A stretch of 36,273 nucleotides of DNA. Origin: Desulfobulbaceae bacterium (GTDB taxonomy: Bacteria > Desulfobacterota > Desulfobulbia > Desulfobulbales > VMSU01). The notes beneath the pieces are model-generated. The model searched no databases, had not been told where the DNA came from, and saw nothing but the letters and a program-made list of their open reading frames with translations. Shown piece after piece: positions 9,213-30,812 of the stretch; the first letter of the stretch is position 1, and each line of letters begins with the position of its first letter. The stretch spans positions 1-36,273 of the forward strand of contig JADGBM010000021.1 in assembly GCA_015231515.1 (NCBI GenBank), in the 5' to 3' direction. The position numbers and the translations under genes are program-made.

Positions 9213-9261
9213 GTGTGTTCGGATACGTATCGTTCATCCTTTTACATAGGGATCTCACGTG

Positions 9262-12120
9262 ATGACTGCTGAAGCGTACTCAATGAATTTATCAAAATTT
9301 ATAGTCATTGTTTTATCTATGGTTTTTATGGCAGGCGAATCCTATGCAATCGTTACGGACGCGCCACATAATGAATCAAACGTAATTGAGTGCAATACAT
9401 GCCACTCCTACTCCCTATGGTGGGAATTTTCACCGTTGACTCGAGGCAACAGCCAGTTTGATACACAGATTGCGCTTATTTGTGCCACCATGTGTCATAA
9501 CTCAGCTTCTCCGCAAGACCCAAAAGACCACTCGAATACGGTTCTGGGAACACGGCATCGTCCTATTCTTGGCGGGTGGACTCAAACATGTGTTGATTGC
9601 CATGACCCACATTTTCAGGCTCAGCTGGACTGGAGTTCGACGGATGCAAGTGATCTTTTTTTGGCTACGGGTGTTATAAACGCATTTACTGACCTTGGTG
9701 ATGGCACTACTGCTATCGGCTATACGAATCTTACCACAAAATCCGGCTGGGAGATTCCCGGCGACTGGCCCAACAAGACAGGCGCAGGGCGCGGTTTGAT
9801 CGTTGTTGTCAACGATGGGTTGGGTGACCTCACCTATGAGATTAATACCGCTGTTGAAACTATTCCTGGCGATGGTCTAATAAATCTTCAGGGAACAGCG
9901 CCATCATCTGTTAACGGTTTGAGCTTTACGATTATTTATGGGCAGTTTATTCGGTCTCAAATTCGTCGAGCTTCCATTAATTACCCTGTGAAATTTTTTG
10001 AGCCCGGAGTTGCTGTGGGTGGTTTTGCAGATTTTAGTGGCAGCACGTATACTGGTTTATGCCAAGTATGTCATACCCAGACAGCACATTTCCGATTTGA
10101 CGGCAGCAGTTCTGATCCCAATCATACAAACATCAACCTGGTTCCTGGCGACAACTGTCTGAGTTGTCACGCCCATGAGACAGGATTTGCCCACAGCGGG
10201 GATGGCAGCGGCCCTAGCTGCGCGGTCTCAGCCTGTCATGACAGTGGGTCGCACTCAGCCCATCTGGACATCAATATCGACTGCTCTAACTGCCACGACC
10301 TTGGTAATATGTACACTGTGGGAGGGGCCATTCAACTTGATCTTGGCTCAACCACTGTCTGTGTCAGTTGTCATCATGACGGTGCTGGTGATCCGCCGAA
10401 TCAAACTGATTTCAAGGTCCGTTGGCCGAGTGGGCCAGGTTTTCTCTGTGATGGATGTCATGGTAATCCGCCGGCTTATGCTAATGGTACGGTGAAGGGC
10501 GGAACACCAAAGGCCAATAGTCACAGTATTCATCTGGCCAATAACTATGGTTGTCAAGCCTGTCACTATAGTACGACAACAGACGGACTGACAGTTTCCG
10601 GAACCAGCAGTCATGTTAATGGCTCGTTTGATGTCAATCCGTCTCCATCGTTTAGCTTTACCTATGTTTACAATGATAACGGCGGCACGTGCGGCAGCGT
10701 TTCCTGTCATGGAGGCAATGCTGCCACATGGGGGGCAAGTGGACCATTCAGCTGTGATCAATGTCATCTTGGTGACGGTGATAGTAATGATTACAGCTAT
10801 GCCAATGGGACTTTGGGGCGAATTGATACTACCCAGTGGCTCTCCTCCGGTCATGGTGCGCCGTCAAATGCAAACTATTCGGTGTCCAACAATCCTGGAG
10901 CCGCAATGGTATGTGATTATTGTCACACTGGCAGTCATGATGCGCCTGGCAATCCTTTCAGATTAGCCAATATTGCTGGTACTGATGGCATGAATGGAGT
11001 TTGTCTGGTTTGTCACCAAACGGGAGCTCCTGGTTTTGATCCTGACGGTCTTGGTGCTTTGGCAGAAATCAATGCAACTACCTCAGATCCTGTGAATAGT
11101 TTTCACGCCGGTAATCTGCATGACATAACGTTAAATGGTGGTAAATTTTGTTGGGACTGTCATGATCCGCATGGCGACAGTAATATCTTCATGATCCATG
11201 ATTCTGTGACAAAGCAGTCAGATGGGCTGTATGGTATTCCAACCACCATGGTATCAACGGTTTTTACAGATAACGCCACTGGCAGTGCATATTCTCAAGA
11301 AATGGGCCCATTTACTGGAATCTGCAATGTTTGTCACACCATAGCCAATCATTATGGGACTGACTATGGAGATGCTCACCGGCGAACCTATGTGTGTACC
11401 AACTGTCACTTACACGATGGGCTTCCTGTGGGAGAACCTCCGGTTATTAATCCTGCCGCCGCTTTTGAGCCGCAAACTCTTTTTGTTGATTATGGAGGAG
11501 TCCTATTGAGGACAGACGGTTCACCCCCGTATCCACTTATTAACAATAAAGTTACTTTGCGCAATCAAACCAGTGGCTTAATTGAAGACAGTGACAATAC
11601 AGATAGTTTCGGTGTTTGGCACGTAATGGCTCCGGATGATTGTTATATTGTTGAACCTGATCAGGGAGCCCGAGATCAAAGCTATTTTTACCCTGAAACT
11701 CTGGTGGTATGTGGGTCAAACACCGATATACAGTTTACTCCAGATCCGGCTCCTCAAGCCCCGGTCTTAATTGATGAACCTTACCACTCAAATCTCAATG
11801 ATACACCAACGGTAAATGTTCTCCTTGAGTGGAATGCCGTGATTGATCCACCAGCTTCAAATCCAGTCCTGTATTATTATGAGATCGCTACCAATTCTCT
11901 CTTTTCTCCACTGGTAACTTCAGGGTTCACTACTGCCACTAATGTTCAATTTGTCGGTGATGCAGGCCAGACCTATCTGTGGAGAGTTGCTGCTAAAGAG
12001 GATATGTTTCCAGGTCGAACCAGCAGTTTTTCAGTGTACGACGATTTTCTCATATATTCAGTCAGTGGTAGTGGCGATTGTTCACATATGCCTACTAATT
12101 GTGCCGGGCCCGATTTTTAA
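9262..12120 (+). CDS. Secreted multiheme c-type cytochrome with 17 candidate heme sites and C-terminal beta-rich domains
   Basis: The product is about 952 residues. A hydrophobic segment (FIVIVLSMVFMAG) ending in ESYA looks like a Sec signal peptide, so the hemes would be periplasmic or outside the cell. I count 14 CxxCH sites, for example CNTCH, CVDCH, CQVCH and CTNCH. Three unusual sites are present: one CxxxCH (CATMCH) and two CxxxxCH (CAVSACH, CGSVSCH), a pattern of the Geobacter-type C4xCH/C2xCH cytochromes. All lie between residues about 43 and 716. The last 240 residues lack hemes and look like a carboxypeptidase-regulatory-like domain followed by a fibronectin-III-like domain, suited to surface attachment. 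ATG 9262 is preferred because AGGG lies 10 bases upstream; GTG 9259 and ATG 9283 are alternatives. Confidence 0.9.
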   Translation: MTAEAYSMNLSKFIVIVLSMVFMAGESYAIVTDAPHNESNVIECNTCHSYSLWWEFSPLTRGNSQFDTQIALICATMCHNSASPQDPKDHSNTVLGTRHRPILGGWTQTCVDCHDPHFQAQLDWSSTDASDLFLATGVINAFTDLGDGTTAIGYTNLTTKSGWEIPGDWPNKTGAGRGLIVVVNDGLGDLTYEINTAVETIPGDGLINLQGTAPSSVNGLSFTIIYGQFIRSQIRRASINYPVKFFEPGVAVGGFADFSGSTYTGLCQVCHTQTAHFRFDGSSSDPNHTNINLVPGDNCLSCHAHETGFAHSGDGSGPSCAVSACHDSGSHSAHLDINIDCSNCHDLGNMYTVGGAIQLDLGSTTVCVSCHHDGAGDPPNQTDFKVRWPSGPGFLCDGCHGNPPAYANGTVKGGTPKANSHSIHLANNYGCQACHYSTTTDGLTVSGTSSHVNGSFDVNPSPSFSFTYVYNDNGGTCGSVSCHGGNAATWGASGPFSCDQCHLGDGDSNDYSYANGTLGRIDTTQWLSSGHGAPSNANYSVSNNPGAAMVCDYCHTGSHDAPGNPFRLANIAGTDGMNGVCLVCHQTGAPGFDPDGLGALAEINATTSDPVNSFHAGNLHDITLNGGKFCWDCHDPHGDSNIFMIHDSVTKQSDGLYGIPTTMVSTVFTDNATGSAYSQEMGPFTGICNVCHTIANHYGTDYGDAHRRTYVCTNCHLHDGLPVGEPPVINPAAAFEPQTLFVDYGGVLLRTDGSPPYPLINNKVTLRNQTSGLIEDSDNTDSFGVWHVMAPDDCYIVEPDQGARDQSYFYPETLVVCGSNTDIQFTPDPAPQAPVLIDEPYHSNLNDTPTVNVLLEWNAVIDPPASNPVLYYYEIATNSLFSPLVTSGFTTATNVQFVGDAGQTYLWRVAAKEDMFPGRTSSFSVYDDFLIYSVSGSGDCSHMPTNCAGPDF

Positions 12121-12153
12121 GCAGTAAAATTCAAAAAAGTAAAGGAGAGACAT

Positions 12154-12540
12154 ATGAACTGGAAATCGGCTTTGGTCTGTTGTTCCCTATTGTTTATATC
12201 TGCGGCTTGTTCTGGTGACAAATCGTCTGATGCGCCGTCGAGTTCTCCTGCTAAATCGACACCGACGTCTTCTCCCTCACAGAGCGTTGATGCACCCGTG
12301 CAAAAAAATGTGGCGGCAGCTAATGATGGAAGTTGCCTATCGATATTCGAATCGGATTGTATCAGCTGTCATAACGAAAATCGTTCTTGTCAAAAACTTG
12401 GCAAAAAAGACAAGGCGCGCTGGAAACGGACTATTGACCGGATGATGAAGCGTGGTTCTAAGTTAAGTCCAGCTGATCAGGAGACACTGCTTGACTGTTT
12501 GGCCGATGAAAGTGCTGATATTGTCCAAATGTGCAAATAG
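12154..12540 (+). CDS. Small lipoprotein with a single heme-binding CxxCH motif
   Basis: The 128-residue product has a lipoprotein signal peptide (MNWKSALVCCSLLFISAAC) with lipobox ISAAC, so the mature protein should start at Cys19 and be membrane-anchored. A Ser/Thr/Pro-rich flexible linker runs to about residue 50. A small helical domain then carries one CISCH motif, further cysteines (CQKL, CLAD, QMCK) and WKRTIDRMMKRG, similar to mono-heme cytochromes. GC in the linker is not obviously different from neighbours. AAAGGAGAG precedes the ATG. It lies 33 bases after the large multiheme cytochrome and is probably cotranscribed, so it may pass electrons to or from it. Confidence 0.82.
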   Translation: MNWKSALVCCSLLFISAACSGDKSSDAPSSSPAKSTPTSSPSQSVDAPVQKNVAAANDGSCLSIFESDCISCHNENRSCQKLGKKDKARWKRTIDRMMKRGSKLSPADQETLLDCLADESADIVQMCK

Positions 12541-21877: not shown

Positions 21878-23152
21878 ATGAAACGAAGACTATTGTCATC
21901 ACTGTGCGCCATCTCAATTCTTGCGCTATCTGTTGCAGCTCAAGCAGCAGACACAATTAAGGTGGGCGTCCTACATTCCCTCTCTGGAACGATGGCTATC
22001 AGCGAAACAACATTAAAAGACACAATGCTGATGCTTATTGATGAGCAGAATAAAAAGGGTGGGCTTTTAGGCAAAAAACTGGAGGCAGTGGTTGTGGACC
22101 CAGCATCTAACTGGCCGCTTTTTGCTGAAAAAGCTAGGGAGCTTATCGAAAAAGATAAAGTTGCATCTGTTTTTGGTTGCTGGACCTCTGTTTCAAGAAA
22201 ATCTGTTCTTCCTGTCTTTGAGGAACTGAACAGCCTGCTTTTCTACCCAGTCCAGTATGAAGGTGAGGAATCTTCAAAGAATGTATTCTACACAGGTGCA
22301 GCGCCTAACCAACAAGCTATACCTGCTGTCGATTATTTAATGAATGACATTAAGGTTAAACGATGGGTACTGGCAGGAACAGACTATGTCTATCCTCGAA
22401 CGACTAATAAAATTTTAGAGGCCTATCTCAAGTCAAAAGGGGTTGCTGAAAAAGATATCATGATTAATTACACCCCATTTGGCCATTCAGATTGGCAGTC
22501 AATTGTTTCTGATATCAAAAAGTTCGGCTCTGCTGGTGTGAAAACGGCTGTTGTGTCAACCATCAATGGTGATGCAAACGTTCCTTTCTATAAAGAGTTG
22601 GCTAATCAAGGTGTTTCAGCTCAAGACATTCCTGTTGTTGCTTTTTCTGTGGGCGAGGAAGAGTTGTCCGGTTTTTCAACGAAACCTCTTGTTGGTCACC
22701 TTGCTGCCTGGAATTACTTCATGAGTGTTGATAATCCAATCAACGATGCATTCATCGAAACCTGGCAGACATTTATCAAGAGTGACAAGCGAGTTACAAA
22801 TGATCCAATGGAAGCCCATTACATTGGGTTTAATATGTGGGTTAAAGCTGTAGAGAAAGCTGGTACTACAGACTCCGATGCCGTGCAGAAAGCAATCATT
22901 GGAATCACCGTTCCGAATCTTTCTGGCGGTTACGCAGCTATGATGCCCAATCATCATATCACGAAACCTGTACTCATTGGTGAAATTCAGGCTGATGGCC
23001 AGTTCGTTACTGTATGGCAGACTGCCGGCACAGTAGTCGGCGATGCATGGTCAGATTATCTCGATGGTTCAAAAGACCTTATTTCTGATTGGCGTGCACC
23101 GCTTTCTTGCGGAAATTTCAATGTAAAATCTGGCTCCTGTTCAGGAAACTAA
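21878..23152 (+). CDS. urtA: UrtA, periplasmic urea-binding protein
   Basis: This 424-residue substrate-binding protein delivers urea to the UrtBCDE importer. A Sec signal peptide (MKRRLLSSLCAISILAL, cleavage after AQA) is followed by DTIKVGVLHSLSGTMAISE, the UrtA/AmiC-type opening. Other UrtA features are VFGCWTSVSRKSVLPVFEE, LLFYPVQYEGEE and VVDPASNWPLFAEKAREL. The ATG is preceded by AAGGAGA. It is the first gene of the operon after the sigma-54 promoter, and a stem-loop separates it from urtB, consistent with higher expression of the binding protein. The length is normal for the family. Confidence 0.96.
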   Translation: MKRRLLSSLCAISILALSVAAQAADTIKVGVLHSLSGTMAISETTLKDTMLMLIDEQNKKGGLLGKKLEAVVVDPASNWPLFAEKARELIEKDKVASVFGCWTSVSRKSVLPVFEELNSLLFYPVQYEGEESSKNVFYTGAAPNQQAIPAVDYLMNDIKVKRWVLAGTDYVYPRTTNKILEAYLKSKGVAEKDIMINYTPFGHSDWQSIVSDIKKFGSAGVKTAVVSTINGDANVPFYKELANQGVSAQDIPVVAFSVGEEELSGFSTKPLVGHLAAWNYFMSVDNPINDAFIETWQTFIKSDKRVTNDPMEAHYIGFNMWVKAVEKAGTTDSDAVQKAIIGITVPNLSGGYAAMMPNHHITKPVLIGEIQADGQFVTVWQTAGTVVGDAWSDYLDGSKDLISDWRAPLSCGNFNVKSGSCSGN

Positions 23153-23165
23153 AAGTATGTGACTG

Positions 23166-23201
23166 GGGCTAAGGAATCAAAAAAGTGTAATTCCTTAGCC
23201 C
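23166..23201 (+). promoter_or_regulatory. Intercistronic stem-loop between urtA and urtB
   Basis: GGGCTAAGGAAT (23166-23177) is perfectly complementary to ATTCCTTAGCCC (23190-23201), a 12-bp stem with a 12-base loop. No U-run follows, so it looks more like an mRNA-stabilising or partial-termination hairpin than a full terminator. It starts 13 bases after the urtA stop. Confidence 0.8.
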
Positions 23202-23256
23202 GGGTCATTTCTTGACAAATCACACCAATTTAACCTTTAAAAGAGCATCAGAGACT

Positions 23257-24891
23257 ATGAAGTTGAGTAGAATATCACACGTGCGTGGCATCTCTTACAT
23301 GGTGCTTTTACTTGTTGCCTCGATCTTTATAACAGATGTCTTGCCATGTTTGGCCGCAGATCAAACTGAATTTGAAAAAGGCCTTGTCCTTTTAACTGAA
23401 AGTGATTTTGCGAAAAAGGAACTGGGCATCGATAAAATCAATACTTTCAATGATCCAGTTAAAACAAAGGAGATCTTTAACGCACTGCTTAAGGACCGGC
23501 TCTTTTATGTAAAAAAAGATAAGACCGTAGTCATTGGCGAGGAAGGGGATAGTTTATACAATATCACCTCTGTTCTGACCGAAGAAAAACTTGCACCGAT
23601 TAACAAAAGAAAGCTTAAAAAAATAAGTCTTAACAACAAGTTACGGCAAACAATAAAATCAAGTATCGCTCAGTTAGATCTGTCTCATCCAGAATCTCAG
23701 GTGCGGCTTGAGGCTGCTAAAAGATTACTTGAAGAGCCAGACCCTTCAACAGTTTCATTATTAACAAATCGATTGTCAGCAGAAAATGATTCCGAGGTGC
23801 GGGAAACATTATTACTAGCACTTGCTATGAGCCAGTTGAAGGATGCTGATTTAGACAAGAGGATAACAGCATTGGACAACTTGAAGGGAAGTCTTAATCC
23901 CGCTGTTCGGTTTGCTGTTGTTGATCTTATAAAGAATGAGGCCGATGAAAAGTTAAAAAAGGATGCGGAGCAGATGTTGAGAGACATTGATTCTCGTATC
24001 TCCTTTTTTGGTTGGGCCGAGACACTATTTTTCGGACTTAGCATGGGATCTGTACTGGTCTTAGCCGCAATCGGCCTCGCTATTACCTTTGGTGTTATCG
24101 GTGTTATCAATATGGCACATGGTGAGCTGATTATGATTGGCGCGTATACAACCTATGTCATTCAACAATTAATGCCTGAATCGATTGGCCTATCGCTCTT
24201 TATTGCTATACCAGCAGCCTTCATGGTCTCTGGCCTTACTGGTATCGTGATCGAAAAAAGTGTGATTCGATTTTTATATGGGCGTCCTCTGGAAACTCTT
24301 CTAGCGACATACGGCCTAAGTCTTATCCTACAGCAAGCTGTACGATCAATATTTTCGCCGCTCAATCGAACCGTAATAACACCTGACTGGATGAGCGGCT
24401 CTTTAGCAATAAACAGTATCTTCTCACTTACAATTAACAGGCTGTCAATTCTTATCTTCTGTGGGCTGGTGTTTGCCGGCCTCTTTATGATTATGAAAAA
24501 AACCTCAATTGGGCTCCAGGTTAGAGCGGTTTCTCAGAATCGAGATATGGCACGAGCAATGGGAGTTCGAGCAGCAAGAGTCGATGCCCTGACTTTTGGG
24601 TTGGGCTCAGGGATTGCTGGGATTGCAGGTGTCGCGCTTAGCCAGCTAACCAATGTTGGCCCCAACCTTGGCCAAGCCTATATCATTGACTCTTTTATGG
24701 TCGTTGTATTTGGTGGTGTTGGCAATTTATGGGGCACAATGCTTGGCGGTTTGTCACTCGGTATCGCTAATAAATTCATAGAACCATGGGCTGGTGCTGT
24801 TCTGGCAAAAATCATTATTCTGGTTTTTATTATTCTGTTTATCCAGAAAAGGCCTCAAGGCTTATTCCCTCAAAAAGGCCGCGTTGCATAA
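23257..24891 (+). CDS. urtB: UrtB, urea ABC transporter permease
   Basis: This is one of the two membrane subunits of the urea importer, about 544 residues from the ATG at 23257. An N-terminal signal-like segment (YMVLLLVASIFITDV) is followed by an extracytoplasmic helical domain of about 200 residues with HEAT-like pairs such as HPESQVRLEAAKRLL. That domain is typical of UrtB and absent from LivH. The permease half follows from GWAETLFFGLSMGSVLVLAAIG, with INMAHGELIMIGAYTTY and the C-terminal VVVFGGVGNLWGTMLGG. ATG 23257 is chosen because the signal-like segment follows it; a TTG at 23212 is in frame but has no support. It ends 11 bases before urtC. Confidence 0.93.
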   Translation: MKLSRISHVRGISYMVLLLVASIFITDVLPCLAADQTEFEKGLVLLTESDFAKKELGIDKINTFNDPVKTKEIFNALLKDRLFYVKKDKTVVIGEEGDSLYNITSVLTEEKLAPINKRKLKKISLNNKLRQTIKSSIAQLDLSHPESQVRLEAAKRLLEEPDPSTVSLLTNRLSAENDSEVRETLLLALAMSQLKDADLDKRITALDNLKGSLNPAVRFAVVDLIKNEADEKLKKDAEQMLRDIDSRISFFGWAETLFFGLSMGSVLVLAAIGLAITFGVIGVINMAHGELIMIGAYTTYVIQQLMPESIGLSLFIAIPAAFMVSGLTGIVIEKSVIRFLYGRPLETLLATYGLSLILQQAVRSIFSPLNRTVITPDWMSGSLAINSIFSLTINRLSILIFCGLVFAGLFMIMKKTSIGLQVRAVSQNRDMARAMGVRAARVDALTFGLGSGIAGIAGVALSQLTNVGPNLGQAYIIDSFMVVVFGGVGNLWGTMLGGLSLGIANKFIEPWAGAVLAKIIILVFIILFIQKRPQGLFPQKGRVA

Positions 24892-24902
24892 GGATTAAAA
24901 AA

Positions 24903-25988
24903 ATGATAGCTCTTTTCATGAATAATAAACGAGCAAGTACGGTTTTCTTGTTGTGTCTTGGGTTGGTCACCATATTGGTTCCTGTATTGAACCTAATGGT
25001 TGGGCCTGAGAATCCCTTGCATATCCCAACATATACCATGTCTATGTTTGGTAAATATTTAACGTATGCACTGCTGGCAGTTGCTGTTGACCTTGTCTGG
25101 GGATATCTCGGTATCCTGAGCTTGGGACATGGGGCTTTTTTTGCTCTAGGTGGCTACGCAATGGGCATGTATCTTATGCGTCAAATTGGCACAAGAGGAG
25201 TCTATGGAAATCCGGTTTTGCCCGATTTTATGGTTTTTTTAAATTGGGAACAGCTACCCTGGTTTTGGCAGGGTTTTCAATGGTTCTGGTTTGCAGTTTT
25301 AATGGCGGTTCTTGCCCCGACATTTTTGTCAATTTTCTTTGGGTGGTTTGCATTTCGTTCAAGAGTTACAGGCGTTTACCTATCGATTATCACCCAGGCC
25401 TTAACCTTTTCGCTGCTTCTGGCGTTCTTTAGAAATGAAATGGGTTTTGGCGGAAACAACGGGCTCACAGACTTTAAAGATATTCTTGGCTTTTCTTTGC
25501 AGTCAGATCTTACACGGGCAAGTTTATTTGTCGCCTCCGGGATTGCTTTGGGCCTGGGATACTTATGCTGTCAATACATCGTTAACTCAAAACTGGGCAG
25601 GGTCTGTACCGCCATTCGCGACTCAGAAAGTCGTGTACAGTTTATAGGGTACAAAATAGAAAACTTTAAACTGTGCATTTTTGCTTTTTCCGCCGCTTTG
25701 GCGGGCATTGCGGGCGCCTTATATGTGCCTCAGGTTGGGATTATCAATCCAACAGAATTTTCACCACTCAACTCTATTGAAATTGTTATTTGGGTTGCAG
25801 TTGGTGGGCGTGCCACGCTTTATGGGCCAGTGGTTGGAGCATTGCTAGTAAATTATGCAAAAAGCTTTTTGACGGCAGCTATGCCTGATGCCTGGCTTTT
25901 TGCCCTTGGAGCAATTTTTGTTATCGTAACTTTGTTTTTGCCCCATGGTGTTACCGGATTATTAAATAAAAGAAAGGCGGCTCAATAA
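24903..25988 (+). CDS. urtC: UrtC, urea ABC transporter permease
   Basis: This second membrane subunit has 361 residues and about ten hydrophobic segments. LVWGYLGILSLGHGAFFALGGY is the LivM/UrtC family signature, and the QLPWFWQGFQWFWFAVLMA loop is typical of UrtC. The C-terminal part has GIAGALYVPQVGIINP and EIVIWVAVGGRATLYGPVVGA, like an intact LivM, in contrast to the truncated LivM at the left edge. ATG 24903 is chosen: AAGGATT precedes it and the in-frame extension upstream to 24786 overlaps urtB. Its stop overlaps the urtD start (TAATG). Confidence 0.94.
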   Translation: MIALFMNNKRASTVFLLCLGLVTILVPVLNLMVGPENPLHIPTYTMSMFGKYLTYALLAVAVDLVWGYLGILSLGHGAFFALGGYAMGMYLMRQIGTRGVYGNPVLPDFMVFLNWEQLPWFWQGFQWFWFAVLMAVLAPTFLSIFFGWFAFRSRVTGVYLSIITQALTFSLLLAFFRNEMGFGGNNGLTDFKDILGFSLQSDLTRASLFVASGIALGLGYLCCQYIVNSKLGRVCTAIRDSESRVQFIGYKIENFKLCIFAFSAALAGIAGALYVPQVGIINPTEFSPLNSIEIVIWVAVGGRATLYGPVVGALLVNYAKSFLTAAMPDAWLFALGAIFVIVTLFLPHGVTGLLNKRKAAQ

Positions 25989-26818
25989 TGAATGCTCTTG
26001 ATAAATTTCGCCAGGCCTTTCGTCGAGACCAAGTCTATGACTTTCTCATCCCTGATATCCCGCCTGATCTTGATGTTACCCACGGTATAATTCTTTATTT
26101 AGAAGATATATCTGTCTCGTTTGACGGATTTAAAGCTATTGATAACTTGAACTTATATATTGGCGATGGTGAATTGCGCTGCATTATTGGTCCAAATGGG
26201 GCGGGTAAAACCACCATGATGGATATCATAACCGGTAAAACCAAACCAGATTGCGGTAAAGCCTGGTTCGGGCAGAGTATCGACCTTCTTAAACTCTCTG
26301 AACCAGAAATTGCTCAAACTGGAATTGGCAGAAAATTTCAGAAACCAACAGTTTTTGAAAACCACACAGTCTGTGAAAATCTTGAACTGGCAATGTCGTG
26401 CAATAAAGGTGTTTTCCCAACTCTTTTTGCCAAGTTATCGGGCGAACAGAGAGATTATATTGCTGAAGTTCTTGAGCTAATTGGTTTAACTGAAATAACA
26501 TACCACCGTGCTGGCTCACTGTCCCATGGGCAGAAACAATGGCTGGAGATTGGCATGCTGCTCATGCAGAAACCCAAACTACTGTTAGTCGACGAGCCTG
26601 TTGCCGGGATGACCCATCAGGAGATGGATCGTACCGCTGAACTCCTTACTTCACTGGCCGGGGATAGATCTGTTGTTGTCGTTGAACATGATATGGACTT
26701 TGTGCGCTCAATTGCCCAAACAGTGACAGTCCTTCATCAGGGGAGTATTTTGGCAGAGGGAAGTATGGATGAAATCCAGAATGACCAACGGGTTATACAG
26801 GTTTACCTGGGAGAATAA
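25988..26818 (+). CDS. urtD: UrtD, urea ABC transporter ATP-binding protein
   Basis: This 276-residue cytoplasmic ATPase has Walker A GPNGAGKTTMMDI near residue 68. GIGRKFQKPTVFENHTVCEN is a UrtD hallmark. Signature LSHGQKQWLEIGMLL and Walker B LLLVDEPVAGMTHQE follow, and the H-loop is VVVVEHDMDFV. The N-terminal 40 residues extend beyond LivG, which is usual for UrtD. The ATG overlaps the urtC stop by one base, so translation is coupled. Confidence 0.95.
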   Translation: MNALDKFRQAFRRDQVYDFLIPDIPPDLDVTHGIILYLEDISVSFDGFKAIDNLNLYIGDGELRCIIGPNGAGKTTMMDIITGKTKPDCGKAWFGQSIDLLKLSEPEIAQTGIGRKFQKPTVFENHTVCENLELAMSCNKGVFPTLFAKLSGEQRDYIAEVLELIGLTEITYHRAGSLSHGQKQWLEIGMLLMQKPKLLLVDEPVAGMTHQEMDRTAELLTSLAGDRSVVVVEHDMDFVRSIAQTVTVLHQGSILAEGSMDEIQNDQRVIQVYLGE

Positions 26819-26819
26819 A

Positions 26820-27515
26820 ATGCTCTATATTGAAAAGCTAAACCAGTTATACGGTGAGAGTCATACCCTCTGGGATTTGGATCTCCATGTTGAAAAGGGG
26901 AAATGCACCTGCCTCATGGGGAGAAATGGAGTAGGTAAGACAACTCTTCTCCAATGCATCATGGGGTTGCTTCCTGTTTCCTCTGGAAAAATCCTTTTTA
27001 ATAGTGACGATTTGGTCAAAAAACCTGCAGAACAGAGGGCAAGGCTCGGTATTGGCTTTGTGCCCCAGGGACGGCAAATATTTCCTTTGTTAACCGTGGA
27101 AGAAAATTTAAAAATTGGTCTCGATACGGGAAAAAGTAAAAGAAAAGCAATCCCTGAAAGAATTTTTGACCTTTTCCCGGTATTGCAGGAAATGCTTGAT
27201 CGACGGGGCGGGGATCTCTCTGGCGGTCAGCAACAACAGTTGGCAATTGGCAGAGCCCTGGTTCTGGAACCGACCCTCTTGATTCTTGATGAACCAACAG
27301 AAGGGATTCAGCCCAATATTGTCAATGAAATTGGCGATATCATCATAAAGCTAAACCGAGAAGAAGGGGTTACCGTTTTGCTCGTTGAGCAAAAACTAAA
27401 ATTTGCGCGAAGAGTTGCCGATAATTTTACGTTGTTGGATAAGGGGCGTGGGGTGGCAAACGGTCCCATTGCCGATTTAAATGAAGAGCTAATAAATCAA
27501 TATTTAAAAGTATGA
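26820..27515 (+). CDS. urtE: UrtE, urea ABC transporter ATP-binding protein
   Basis: This second ATPase has 231 residues. It opens MLYIEKLNQLYGESHTLW, with Walker A GRNGVGKTTLLQC near residue 36. IGFVPQGRQIFPLLTV is the UrtE/LivF switch region. Signature LSGGQQQQLAIGRAL and Walker B LLILDEPTEGIQP follow. ATG 26820 is chosen because the family starts here, one base after the urtD stop; GGGAG precedes it. The stop is 11 bases before the likely ureD start, which directly links transporter and enzyme genes. Confidence 0.95.
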   Translation: MLYIEKLNQLYGESHTLWDLDLHVEKGKCTCLMGRNGVGKTTLLQCIMGLLPVSSGKILFNSDDLVKKPAEQRARLGIGFVPQGRQIFPLLTVEENLKIGLDTGKSKRKAIPERIFDLFPVLQEMLDRRGGDLSGGQQQQLAIGRALVLEPTLLILDEPTEGIQPNIVNEIGDIIIKLNREEGVTVLLVEQKLKFARRVADNFTLLDKGRGVANGPIADLNEELINQYLKV

Positions 27516-27526
27516 GATAGGCCAAA

Positions 27527-28405
27527 TTGACCTCATTACCAAATTGCAGTGAAGAGACTTTGGGCAGTAACTCTTCTGGATGGTTGGCAGGCCTGGAGTT
27601 AGAGTTTTATGTCGCTGAACAAAAAACGGTTTCACGACAGGTACGACACCATGGCCCTCTTCAGACACAGCGTTCTTTTTACCCCGAAGGCGATGATGTG
27701 TGTCATACCTATATTCTCCATCCTCCGGGAGGGGTTGTTGGTGGCGACCAGCTTAAAATAAAAGTGCGTATGCATGAGGGCGCAAATGCTTTAGTGACAA
27801 CGCCTGCCGCTGGTAAGTTTTATAGAAGTGCAGGTTCAAAGTCTTTGGTCAGTCAAAAAATGATAGTTGGGAATAATGCAGTGCTGGAGTGGCTGCCCCA
27901 GGAAAATATTATCTATAATCAGGCAAAGGCCTCTCAGACAACCAATATTGAGTTGGGGAAAAATTCTTGTTTTTTAGGTTGGGAGATATGTTGTTTAGGG
28001 TTAGCTGCTTCAAAAGAACCTTTTGAAGCAGGACTCTTCCACCAGACATTTAATGTCTGGCAAGATGGTGTTCCTCTTTTAGTAGAACGCTCCTGCTTTG
28101 AAACGGACTCGGCAATGCTAAAGGCGGCATGGGGACTGAGGAACTGCTCGGTCGTCGGAACCTTAATCTGTAGTCGGATTCCAAATGATAAAACAAAATC
28201 ACTTCTTAATGAAATTAGATCTGCTGTGGCAGCTGTAACAGAAGATGACCTCTTTAGTGTAACAACCGTCAGTGGCATGATTGTGTGCCGTTACCTTGGT
28301 GACCATGCCTATAAAGCACGGAAATGTTTTGTTGTTGCCTGGAAAATATTACGAGAAAGCGTGCTTGGCCGCTCAGCATGTTTGCCGAGAATTTGGAATA
28401 CATAG
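27527..28405 (+). CDS. ureD: UreD (UreH), urease accessory protein
   Basis: This 292-residue scaffold protein forms the UreDFG complex that loads nickel into urease. Family features are HHGPLQTQRSFYPEGD, YILHPPGGVVGGDQL, TTPAAGKFYRS and LEWLPQENIIYN. The first in-frame ATG lies well inside the conserved region, so the start is probably the TTG at 27527, with GAGATAGG just upstream; another TTG in the first 25 codons is possible. Two adjacent perfect hairpins (28005-28031 and 28042-28060) are embedded in a stretch conserved at protein level (FEAGLFHQTFNVWQDG). It leads the urease genes, as in many ureDABCEFG operons. Confidence 0.93.
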   Translation: MTSLPNCSEETLGSNSSGWLAGLELEFYVAEQKTVSRQVRHHGPLQTQRSFYPEGDDVCHTYILHPPGGVVGGDQLKIKVRMHEGANALVTTPAAGKFYRSAGSKSLVSQKMIVGNNAVLEWLPQENIIYNQAKASQTTNIELGKNSCFLGWEICCLGLAASKEPFEAGLFHQTFNVWQDGVPLLVERSCFETDSAMLKAAWGLRNCSVVGTLICSRIPNDKTKSLLNEIRSAVAAVTEDDLFSVTTVSGMIVCRYLGDHAYKARKCFVVAWKILRESVLGRSACLPRIWNT

Positions 28406-28486
28406 CCAGAACATTCAATAAATTATTTTGGATAGTTTGTTTACAATCAATGACGTTGTCCGAGTCAAAAATTAGAGAGGAATCGT

Positions 28487-28804
28487 ATGGAATTAACTCC
28501 TAGGGAAAAAGATAAGTTACTTCTTTTTACTGCAGGTTTACTTGCAGAACGACGAAAGGCTCGTGGCTTAAAACTCAATTATCCAGAAGCCATTGCCTTT
28601 ATTTCTGCTGCGGTTTTAGAAGGCGCTCGTGACGGAAAAACCGTTGAAGAGTTAATGGATTATGGTGCCACCTTGCTCACCACTGCTGATGTTATGGGTG
28701 GTATTGCAGAGATGGTTACAGAGGTTCAGGTTGAGGCAACATTTCCTGACGGCACCAAACTGGTGACTGTCCATGATCCGATCAAACAAGGAGCGACATC
28801 ATGA
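28487..28804 (+). CDS. ureA: Urease gamma subunit
   Basis: This is the smallest structural subunit of the nickel enzyme urease, 105 residues. It opens [21 protein letters not shown], then [21 protein letters not shown] and a [18 protein letters not shown] block, all diagnostic. AGAGAGGAA precedes the ATG, which is 81 bases after the ureD stop, the largest gap inside the urease block. Its stop overlaps ureB by four bases (ATGA). Separate gamma, beta and alpha genes are the common bacterial arrangement, as opposed to fused forms such as in Helicobacter. Confidence 0.97.
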
Positions 28805-29109
28805 TACCAGGAGAGATGTTTCTTGCGAGCCAAGAGATTGAGCTTAACGCTGATCGCCCTAGCCACCGAATACTTGTTGCCAACACAGGTGATAGGCCTG
28901 TGCAGGTTGGTTCCCATTACCATTTTTATGAGGTGAACAGCGCCCTTGAGTTTGATCGTGATGAGGCGCTTGGGTGTCGATTAAATATTCCGTCTGGTAC
29001 TGCCGTTCGCTTTGAACCAGGACAAAGTCGTGAAGTCGAGCTAATTCGTTTTGCCGGGGATTTAAACATATATGGTTTTAACGGCAAAATAATGGGAGGA
29101 GTCAAATAA
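28801..29109 (+). CDS. ureB: Urease beta subunit
   Basis: The 102-residue beta-barrel subunit of urease packs with UreA and UreC in a trimer of ABC units. It opens [17 protein letters not shown] and has [18 protein letters not shown] and the closing [18 protein letters not shown]. It starts within the ureA stop (ATGA) and its own stop overlaps the ureC ATG by one base (TAATG), so the three structural subunits are tightly coupled and should be made in equal amounts. Confidence 0.97.
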
Positions 29110-30812
29110 TGGCATCTATCGACCGAAAAAGTTATGCCGACATGTATGGCCCGACAACAGGCGATCGTATCAGGCTTGCTGATACCGAACTCATAATCGA
29201 GGTTGAAAAGGATTTTACCGTCTACGGTGAAGAGGTAAAGTTTGGCGGCGGAAAGGTTATCCGTGATGGTATGGGGCAGAGTCAGCTTGGCACCGAGTAT
29301 GCGATGGATACAGTAATAACCAATGCCCTTATCCTGGATCATTGGGGAATTGTAAAAGCTGATGTGGGTCTGAAGCTTGGCCGCATTGCTGGCATCGGTA
29401 AAGCCGGAAACCCTGACACCCAGCCAGGCGTTGATATTATAATCGGACCGGGAACTGAAATTATTGCTGGTGAAGGGTTAATTCTAACCGCTGGTGGCTT
29501 AGACTCTCACATTCATTTTATCTGTCCGCAACTTGCAGAAGAGGCTCTTGCTTCAGGTGTAACCACCATGCTTGGCGGTGGTACAGGACCAGCAGCCGGA
29601 ACAAATGCCACTACCTGCACTCCCGGGCCATGGCATATGGAAAGGATGCTTCAGGCAGCAGATGAACTACCTGTGAATATAGGTTTCTTAGGAAAAGGCA
29701 ATGCCAGCCTACCAGAAGCGCTTGTTGAGCAGGTCCGTGCCGGGGCAATGGGCTTAAAACTTCATGAAGATTGGGGCACAACTCCGGCCGCTATAGATAA
29801 TTGTCTCAGTGTTGCTGAAGAGTATGACATTCAAGTGGCAATCCATACTGACACCTTAAACGAATCCGGGTTTGTCGAAAATACGTTGGCAGCCTTTAAG
29901 GGCAGAACAATTCATGCCTACCACACAGAAGGTGCTGGTGGTGGCCATGCTCCGGACATAATCAAGGCTTGCGGAGATGAAAATGTCCTTCCCTCATCGA
30001 CAAATCCAACCCGACCATACACCCATAATACGGTGGCGGAACATTTAGATATGCTCATGGTTTGCCATCATCTCGATCCTGCTATCCCAGAAGATGTGGC
30101 CTTTGCTGACTCCAGGATTAGGCGCGAAACAATTGCCGCTGAAGATATCCTCCATGATTTAGGGGCATTTAGTATGATTGCGTCTGACTCTCAGGCAATG
30201 GGTCGAGTCGGTGAGGTAATTTGTCGAACCTGGCAAACTGCTCATAAGATGAAGGTGCAGCGTGGGGTTCTCTCAGAAGACAGCTCACGAAATGATAATT
30301 TTCGGGCTAAACGCTATGTGGCAAAATACACAATTAACCCAGCCATTGCCCACGGCATAAGCAATGAAGTCGGGTCTGTTGAAGTCGGTAAACTTGCTGA
30401 TTTAGTCTTATGGAAACCAGCTTTTTTTGGTGCAAAACCCGCCATGATCATTAAGGGTGGGATGATCGTTATGGCTCCAATGGGTGACCCAAATGCATCA
30501 ATTCCAACGCCTCAACCGGTGCATTATCGTTACATGTTTGGGGCATTAGGAAGAGCTAAGCATAAATCTTCGGTCAGTTTTGTCTCAAAGGCTGCGGTCG
30601 AAGCAAAAATTGATAGTGTCTACGGGCTCCAGAAGAAAATTATCGCCTCAGTCAACAACAGGACTATCAAAAAAAGCTCGATGATACACAACCATTATTT
30701 GCCGGTCATTGAAGTTGACTCACAAACCTATGAGGTCCGTGCCGATGGCGAGTTATTGATTTGTGAGCCTGCTACGGTACTTCCTTTAGCCCAACGATAT
30801 TATTTATTTTAA
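29109..30812 (+). CDS. ureC: Urease alpha (catalytic) subunit
   Basis: This 567-residue catalytic subunit is identical in length to Klebsiella UreC and hydrolyses urea to ammonia and carbamate. All nickel-centre residues are in place by alignment: His134 and His136 (SHIHFICPQ), the carbamylated Lys217 ([12 protein letters not shown]), His246 ([12 protein letters not shown]), His272 ([15 protein letters not shown]) and Asp360 ([11 protein letters not shown]). The mobile flap with Cys319 (MVCHHLDP) is also intact. The C-terminus LAQRYYLF matches. It should therefore be an active enzyme if nickel is loaded. Confidence 0.98.

Follow-up and report, generated by a model that had tools for sequence, protein, structure and literature searches.

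A 17-site multiheme cytochrome of a Desulfobulbaceae bacterium and its expanded family, with a shared N-terminal module and giant members

We find that a Desulfobulbaceae bacterium encodes a real 17-site multiheme protein of a distinct, expanded family. Its members share an N-terminal module of three hemes, an insert of about 150 residues that is predicted to be a β-barrel, and then further hemes. The greater interest lies in this shared module and in the giant members rather than in the single protein with which the analysis began. We consider, with a probability of about 0.6, that this protein is an exported multiheme electron wire outside the cytoplasm, most likely at the cell's outer surface or within the extracellular matrix; that it is loaded with heme, exported and active is inferred. 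The gene lies on the forward strand of the window, by which we mean the whole stretch of 36,273 nucleotides analyzed, from a draft genome (G000; 3.4 Mb, 225 contigs, 95% complete).

The cytochrome gene (9262 to 12120) was delimited by its open reading frame, motif count, and Pfam and NCBIfam matches over cut-off. The frame starts either at a GTG at 9259 (953 amino acids) or at an ATG at 9262 (952 amino acids), the latter preceded by AGGG at a fitting distance; residues are numbered here from the GTG. It holds 14 CX2CH, one CX3CH and two CX4CH motifs, exactly the count given by the first-pass annotation, while 2000 shuffles of the protein averaged 0.19 such motifs and never exceeded 3. Three heme families were matched over cut-off (Cytochrome_C7, PF14522; Cytochrom_c3_2, PF14537; Cytochrom_CIII, PF02085), as was NCBIfam TIGR01904 (GSu_C4xC__C2xCH; 39.2 bits against a cut-off of 27), with its Pfam twin PF09698 falling below (16 against 21.7). 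By motifs and profile matches, the protein is thus a multiheme c-type cytochrome with c7/c3-like domains and predicted heme binding. A promoter scan returned 12 sites, against 11.6 expected.

On the translation, we recognized by eye a probable Sec signal peptide extending to residue 30 (9262 to 9348). Hemes 1 to 3 follow at residues 45 to 115 (9391 to 9603), where the motifs are kept in relatives, and include the CX3CH site CATMCH at residues 75 to 80 (9481 to 9498). After the heme-free insert (9616 to 10059), hemes 4 to 17 form a c7/c3-like heme chain at residues 268 to 717 (10060 to 11409), with CX4CH sites at residues 321 to 327 (CAVSACH; 10219 to 10239) and 478 to 484 (CGSVSCH; 10690 to 10710). 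The 17 sites between residues 45 and 717 amount to one heme per ~40 residues. A tail of 236 residues without heme motifs (718 to 953; 11410 to 12117) closes the protein.

The insert that separates hemes 3 and 4 (about residues 116 to 267), which the first-pass annotation did not mention, holds the one confidently predicted β domain, modeled as a small β-barrel. The core of this domain (about residues 136 to 229) mostly reached a pLDDT of ~80 to 93, with a dip near 170 to 177; outside it, a model of 311 residues was mostly poor. The insert also includes columns that rank among the best conserved in the family. It matched no Pfam family at E ≤ 1, no NCBIfam model matched the window's insert, and phmmer against the PDB gave a best E of 0.87; the families that match 39 aligned modules are heme families, except for one UshA-like NCBIfam match (2.7e-4) in one member. 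Foldseek gave a best E of 0.016 and nothing at or below 0.001, and the fold matches were small β-barrels of many kinds, with VIA Z scores of at most 7.8, the tool's usual background. The insert's likeness to EF-Tu-like and flavin barrels is therefore offered as a lead only. MtrC-type proteins have split β-barrels, and the insert may resemble these in plan. Structure prediction was less informative elsewhere: the full-length model averaged a pLDDT of 38.9, with the heme region poorly modeled and the tail at ~25 to 45. Heme-free β domains had been proposed at the C-terminus; the heme-free part of that proposal holds for residues 718 to 953 and the β domains are unconfirmed, as the tail had no Pfam match at E ≤ 1 and its sole blastp match was a weak one to locus L014 (E 5.8e-4).

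Searches with the whole cytochrome at E ≤ 0.001 found matches in 31 of 58 genomes, its own included. A profile built from the N-terminal modules of 39 sequences (A2) matched nine of the ten genomes of the source organism's taxonomic family at 1e-10, and 12 of 395 genomes in a phylum sample at 1e-15, the weakest of which aligned only from about heme 4 on. There are nine family ORFs in the source genome, some cut at contig ends. We take the 16 A2 matches in genome G002 to represent 13 ORFs, with three of the matches being second stretches. The family is lineage-expanded. Beyond the module its members diverge into short or very long heme chains or β-helix tails; one protein of G002 (contig C35) has a tail with a right-handed β-helix and GEVED domains. 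Family ORFs at loci L068, L072 and L006 have a similar C-terminal stretch ending in PW.

Some members are very large, although their motif counts rest on draft assemblies. In the source genome, a paralogue on contig C17 (L065:8655-15414) has 70 motifs in 2253 residues before the contig end cuts its frame. A stop-closed frame of 4471 residues on contig C22 of G002 (L100:1631-15043) carries the same module and 112 motifs, with another family member after it. On the minus strand of G002 contig C173 (~1 to 25424; L097, L101 and L102), a frame that carries the module and runs off the contig has at least 8474 residues and 264 motifs (252 CX2CH, 10 CX3CH and 2 CX4CH), against a mean of 7.5 and a maximum of 15 in shuffled sequences. 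No 40-mer is repeated in this frame, and the 18-kb stretch examined holds no tandem array. For comparison, a Methanoperedenaceae protein with 113 hemes was termed the highest on record in 2020 (PMC7082337), and the PCC3 protein is given 85 hemes (PMC5566968). Those proteins share long chains with few residues per heme with the relatives described here, which reach 112 motifs in the complete frame and 264 in the unfinished one and bear a module of their own. In the literature that we searched, which was largely open-access, this family is not described and no protein with more than 113 hemes is reported.

Several lines of evidence lead us to favor a wire on the surface side of the cell: a motif count far above chance, conserved heme sites, and heme families over cut-off. 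Among the profile matches are UndA (2e-17) and MtrF (6.8e-17), both cell-surface cytochromes, and also Hmc (7e-17), and the Pfam MtrC/MtrF domains II/IV are matched by 11 of the 39 modules. Furthermore, residues 31 to 760 contain 40 histidines, of which 17 are proximal and 23 are not; there is no CXXCK motif, and the heme sites are densely spaced. All 39 modules have histidines 91, 118 and 289, and histidine 332 is kept in 36 of 36. In alignment A1, histidines 37 and 91 are present in 17 of 17 sequences and histidine 118 in 18 of 18; histidine 289, in 1 of 18, probably owes its low count to gap placement. Histidine content and conservation fit bis-His hemes, short of proof. Last, relatives carry β-helix and GEVED tails, and a paralogue on contig C89 lies ~1.1 kb downstream of, and on the same strand as, a GspD-type secretin and secretion-like genes, with an opposite-strand ORF between. 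Another paralogue, on contig C10 of the source genome (L059:4312-16166; 25 motifs), has several further multiheme genes as neighbors; one of these appears by eye to encode a SPOR-repeat protein with 15 motifs.

On this evidence, the protein would be exported by Sec, as its N-terminus suggests, and cytochrome c synthases resident in the cell would join all 17 hemes to it covalently in the periplasm, at the odd sites as well, as the conservation of the sites suggests. Bis-His ligation, judging from histidine content and conservation, would then give a closely spaced heme chain. The protein might then pass the outer membrane, with type II secretion as a possible route, of which the neighbors of the C89 paralogue give one hint. 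The inserted β-barrel and heme-free tail may keep the chain in contact with partners, matrix or minerals.

Likenesses to known systems are partial. The Shewanella decaheme and undecaheme cytochromes MtrC, MtrF and UndA match parts of the heme region and likewise combine heme and β domains, but the window protein has 17 sites and its β insert stands between hemes 3 and 4. The best PDB match of the N-terminal module profile is a Geobacter cytochrome c7 chain (3ov0, which we take to be GSU1996; E 5.4e-11), from heme 4 on; the Geobacter chain, with 12 hemes, is without the β insert. OmcS, of nanowires, matches part of the heme region with profile A1 (3.9e-6), more weakly than many other cytochromes. 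As described in PMC10553843, OetF, a cytochrome with fibronectin domains from ANME partner bacteria, is similar in joining a cytochrome to surface-type domains, in its proposed extracellular electron transfer and in coming from Desulfobacterota.

Other observations count against a surface wire. We found no surface anchor in the cytochrome, and the tail resembles nothing known; histidine 289 is scarce in A1. A porin partner had been suggested as a check, and none emerged: the MtrB/PioB porin of Mtr-type porin-cytochrome conduits (PF11854) has no match in the 95% complete genome, and no conserved porin or conduit adjoins the cytochrome. Hmc, moreover, matches as strongly as MtrF, and Hmc is periplasmic. 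The protein could accordingly be an HmcA-like periplasmic electron store or carrier chain that is never exported beyond the periplasm, a reading that we regard as unlikely but worth weighing. HmcA, the 16-heme high-molecular-weight cytochrome c, also has many c3-like hemes, and the missing conduit would cause no difficulty. Weak HmcA and DmsE-family matches point the same way, although they stay below cut-off, the NCBIfam HmcA equivalog far below it (21.2 bits against 400). Yet hmc-type membrane genes are absent among the scanned window genes. The β-helix and GEVED tails of relatives, and their frames of thousands of residues, also fit the surface better. We therefore retain the surface-side wire, and with it, as a probability, the proposal of the first-pass annotation that extracytoplasmic electron transfer here ends at the cell surface, on the strength of the c7/c3 domains, the UndA, MtrF and Hmc matches and the β-helix tails.

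The other half of that proposal, in which the cytochrome and an adjacent lipoprotein form one dedicated electron-transfer module, now looks quite improbable. The neighbor (12154 to 12540, forward strand) is a monoheme cytochrome c and probable lipoprotein, with a lipobox (ISAAC) judged by eye and, as had been noted, a single CISCH. Among 22 aligned sequences, the window's included, C61, C69, C72, H73, R77, C79, K85, W90, M97, C115 and C127 are kept in all, and His/Met ligation with two disulfides is the natural reading. The CXXCH and distal Met (M97), in 22 of 22 homologues, mark it as a small cytochrome c of class I-like type; Pfam Cytochrome_CBB3 scored below cut-off and the best PDB match had an E of 0.91. 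The two genes lie 33 nt apart on the same strand, AGGAGA stands ahead of the second start, and no terminator-like site is listed between them, so they may be co-transcribed here. The pairing, however, occurs only in the window: a lipoprotein homologue is missing from the loci of all 26 other family ORFs that have 500 nt or more downstream, and we reject the lipoprotein as a conserved partner. Homologues of the lipoprotein are present in 36 of the 58 genomes, the source genome included, and the loci of its relatives (L040-L058, L077 and L078, mostly with ~1.5 kb of flank) contain no ORF with three or more hemes. A conserved partnership is not supported; the lipoprotein would be a separate small electron carrier that is a neighbor here.

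Upstream, a gene encoding a TPR-methyltransferase was also considered as a conserved neighbor and rejected, because the TPR gene at locus L067 matches it over TPR repeats only; the latter, beside the L067 cytochrome, appears by eye to encode an OGT-type glycosyltransferase. Elsewhere in the window (21878 to 30812), genes for a periplasmic binding protein, for two permeases of the BPD_transp_2 family and for urease alpha suggest a cluster that serves urea transport and contains a urease.

The unusual spacings had raised the question of whether such sites bind heme. CX4CH occurs in Desulfovibrio c3, where it is matured by ordinary machinery. We counted the motifs of blastp-aligned relatives, leaving out the window's own rows but keeping near-identical records and the second stretches that some ORFs have. 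At site 75, 35 of 41 relatives have CX2CH and 6 have CX3CH; at site 478, 28 of 59 have CX4CH and 17 have CX2CH; and at site 321, in a poorly aligned region, 20 of 58 have CX2CH, 3 have CX4CH and 2 have CX5CH. The histidine of site 75 is kept in 39 of 39 modules. What relatives carry at sites 75 and 478 places both on heme sites, contrary to the doubt, which persists at most for site 321. Among 52 deduplicated family ORFs, 22 have CX3CH and 30 have CX4CH, and these frequencies, with the aligned sites, lead us to reject the odd motifs as decayed sites. Special lyases had also been invoked; the genome does encode five Cytochrom_C_asm proteins, none of them tied to the odd motifs. A survey counts CX3CH and CX4CH as heme sites (PMC5566968), and ImcH homologues have a constant CX3CH beside a membrane domain (PMC6295460). 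We thus see only a slim chance that at least one of the three motifs is heme-free and that the cytochrome carries 14 to 16 hemes, despite the prevalence of CX2CH at site 75 and the poor alignment at 321. Irregular spacing at ordinary heme sites is a trait across the whole family.

A multiheme enzyme akin to nitrite reductase or hydroxylamine oxidoreductase, instead of a wire, is very improbable: eight-heme nitrite reductases and HAO-like chains do give profile matches, though weaker ones, and flavin-binding barrels occur among the insert's weak fold matches, but no Pfam or NCBIfam enzyme model scores above its cut-off, the histidines suffice for two ligands per heme, and the absence of CXXCK excludes an enzyme with that motif.

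The conserved module offers a means of recognizing family members, among which there are motif numbers above the 113 hemes of the 2020 record (PMC7082337). We tentatively suggest, as a possibility short of even odds, that the window protein is a small member of an undescribed family in which a conserved N-terminal unit starts either covalent heme wires of about 10 to more than 260 hemes or giant β-helix surface tails, with the β-barrel as a common docking unit, and that one polypeptide may do the job of polymerized nanowires. Should cells really produce covalent heme wires of this length, long-distance electron transport could do without polymerized cytochromes.
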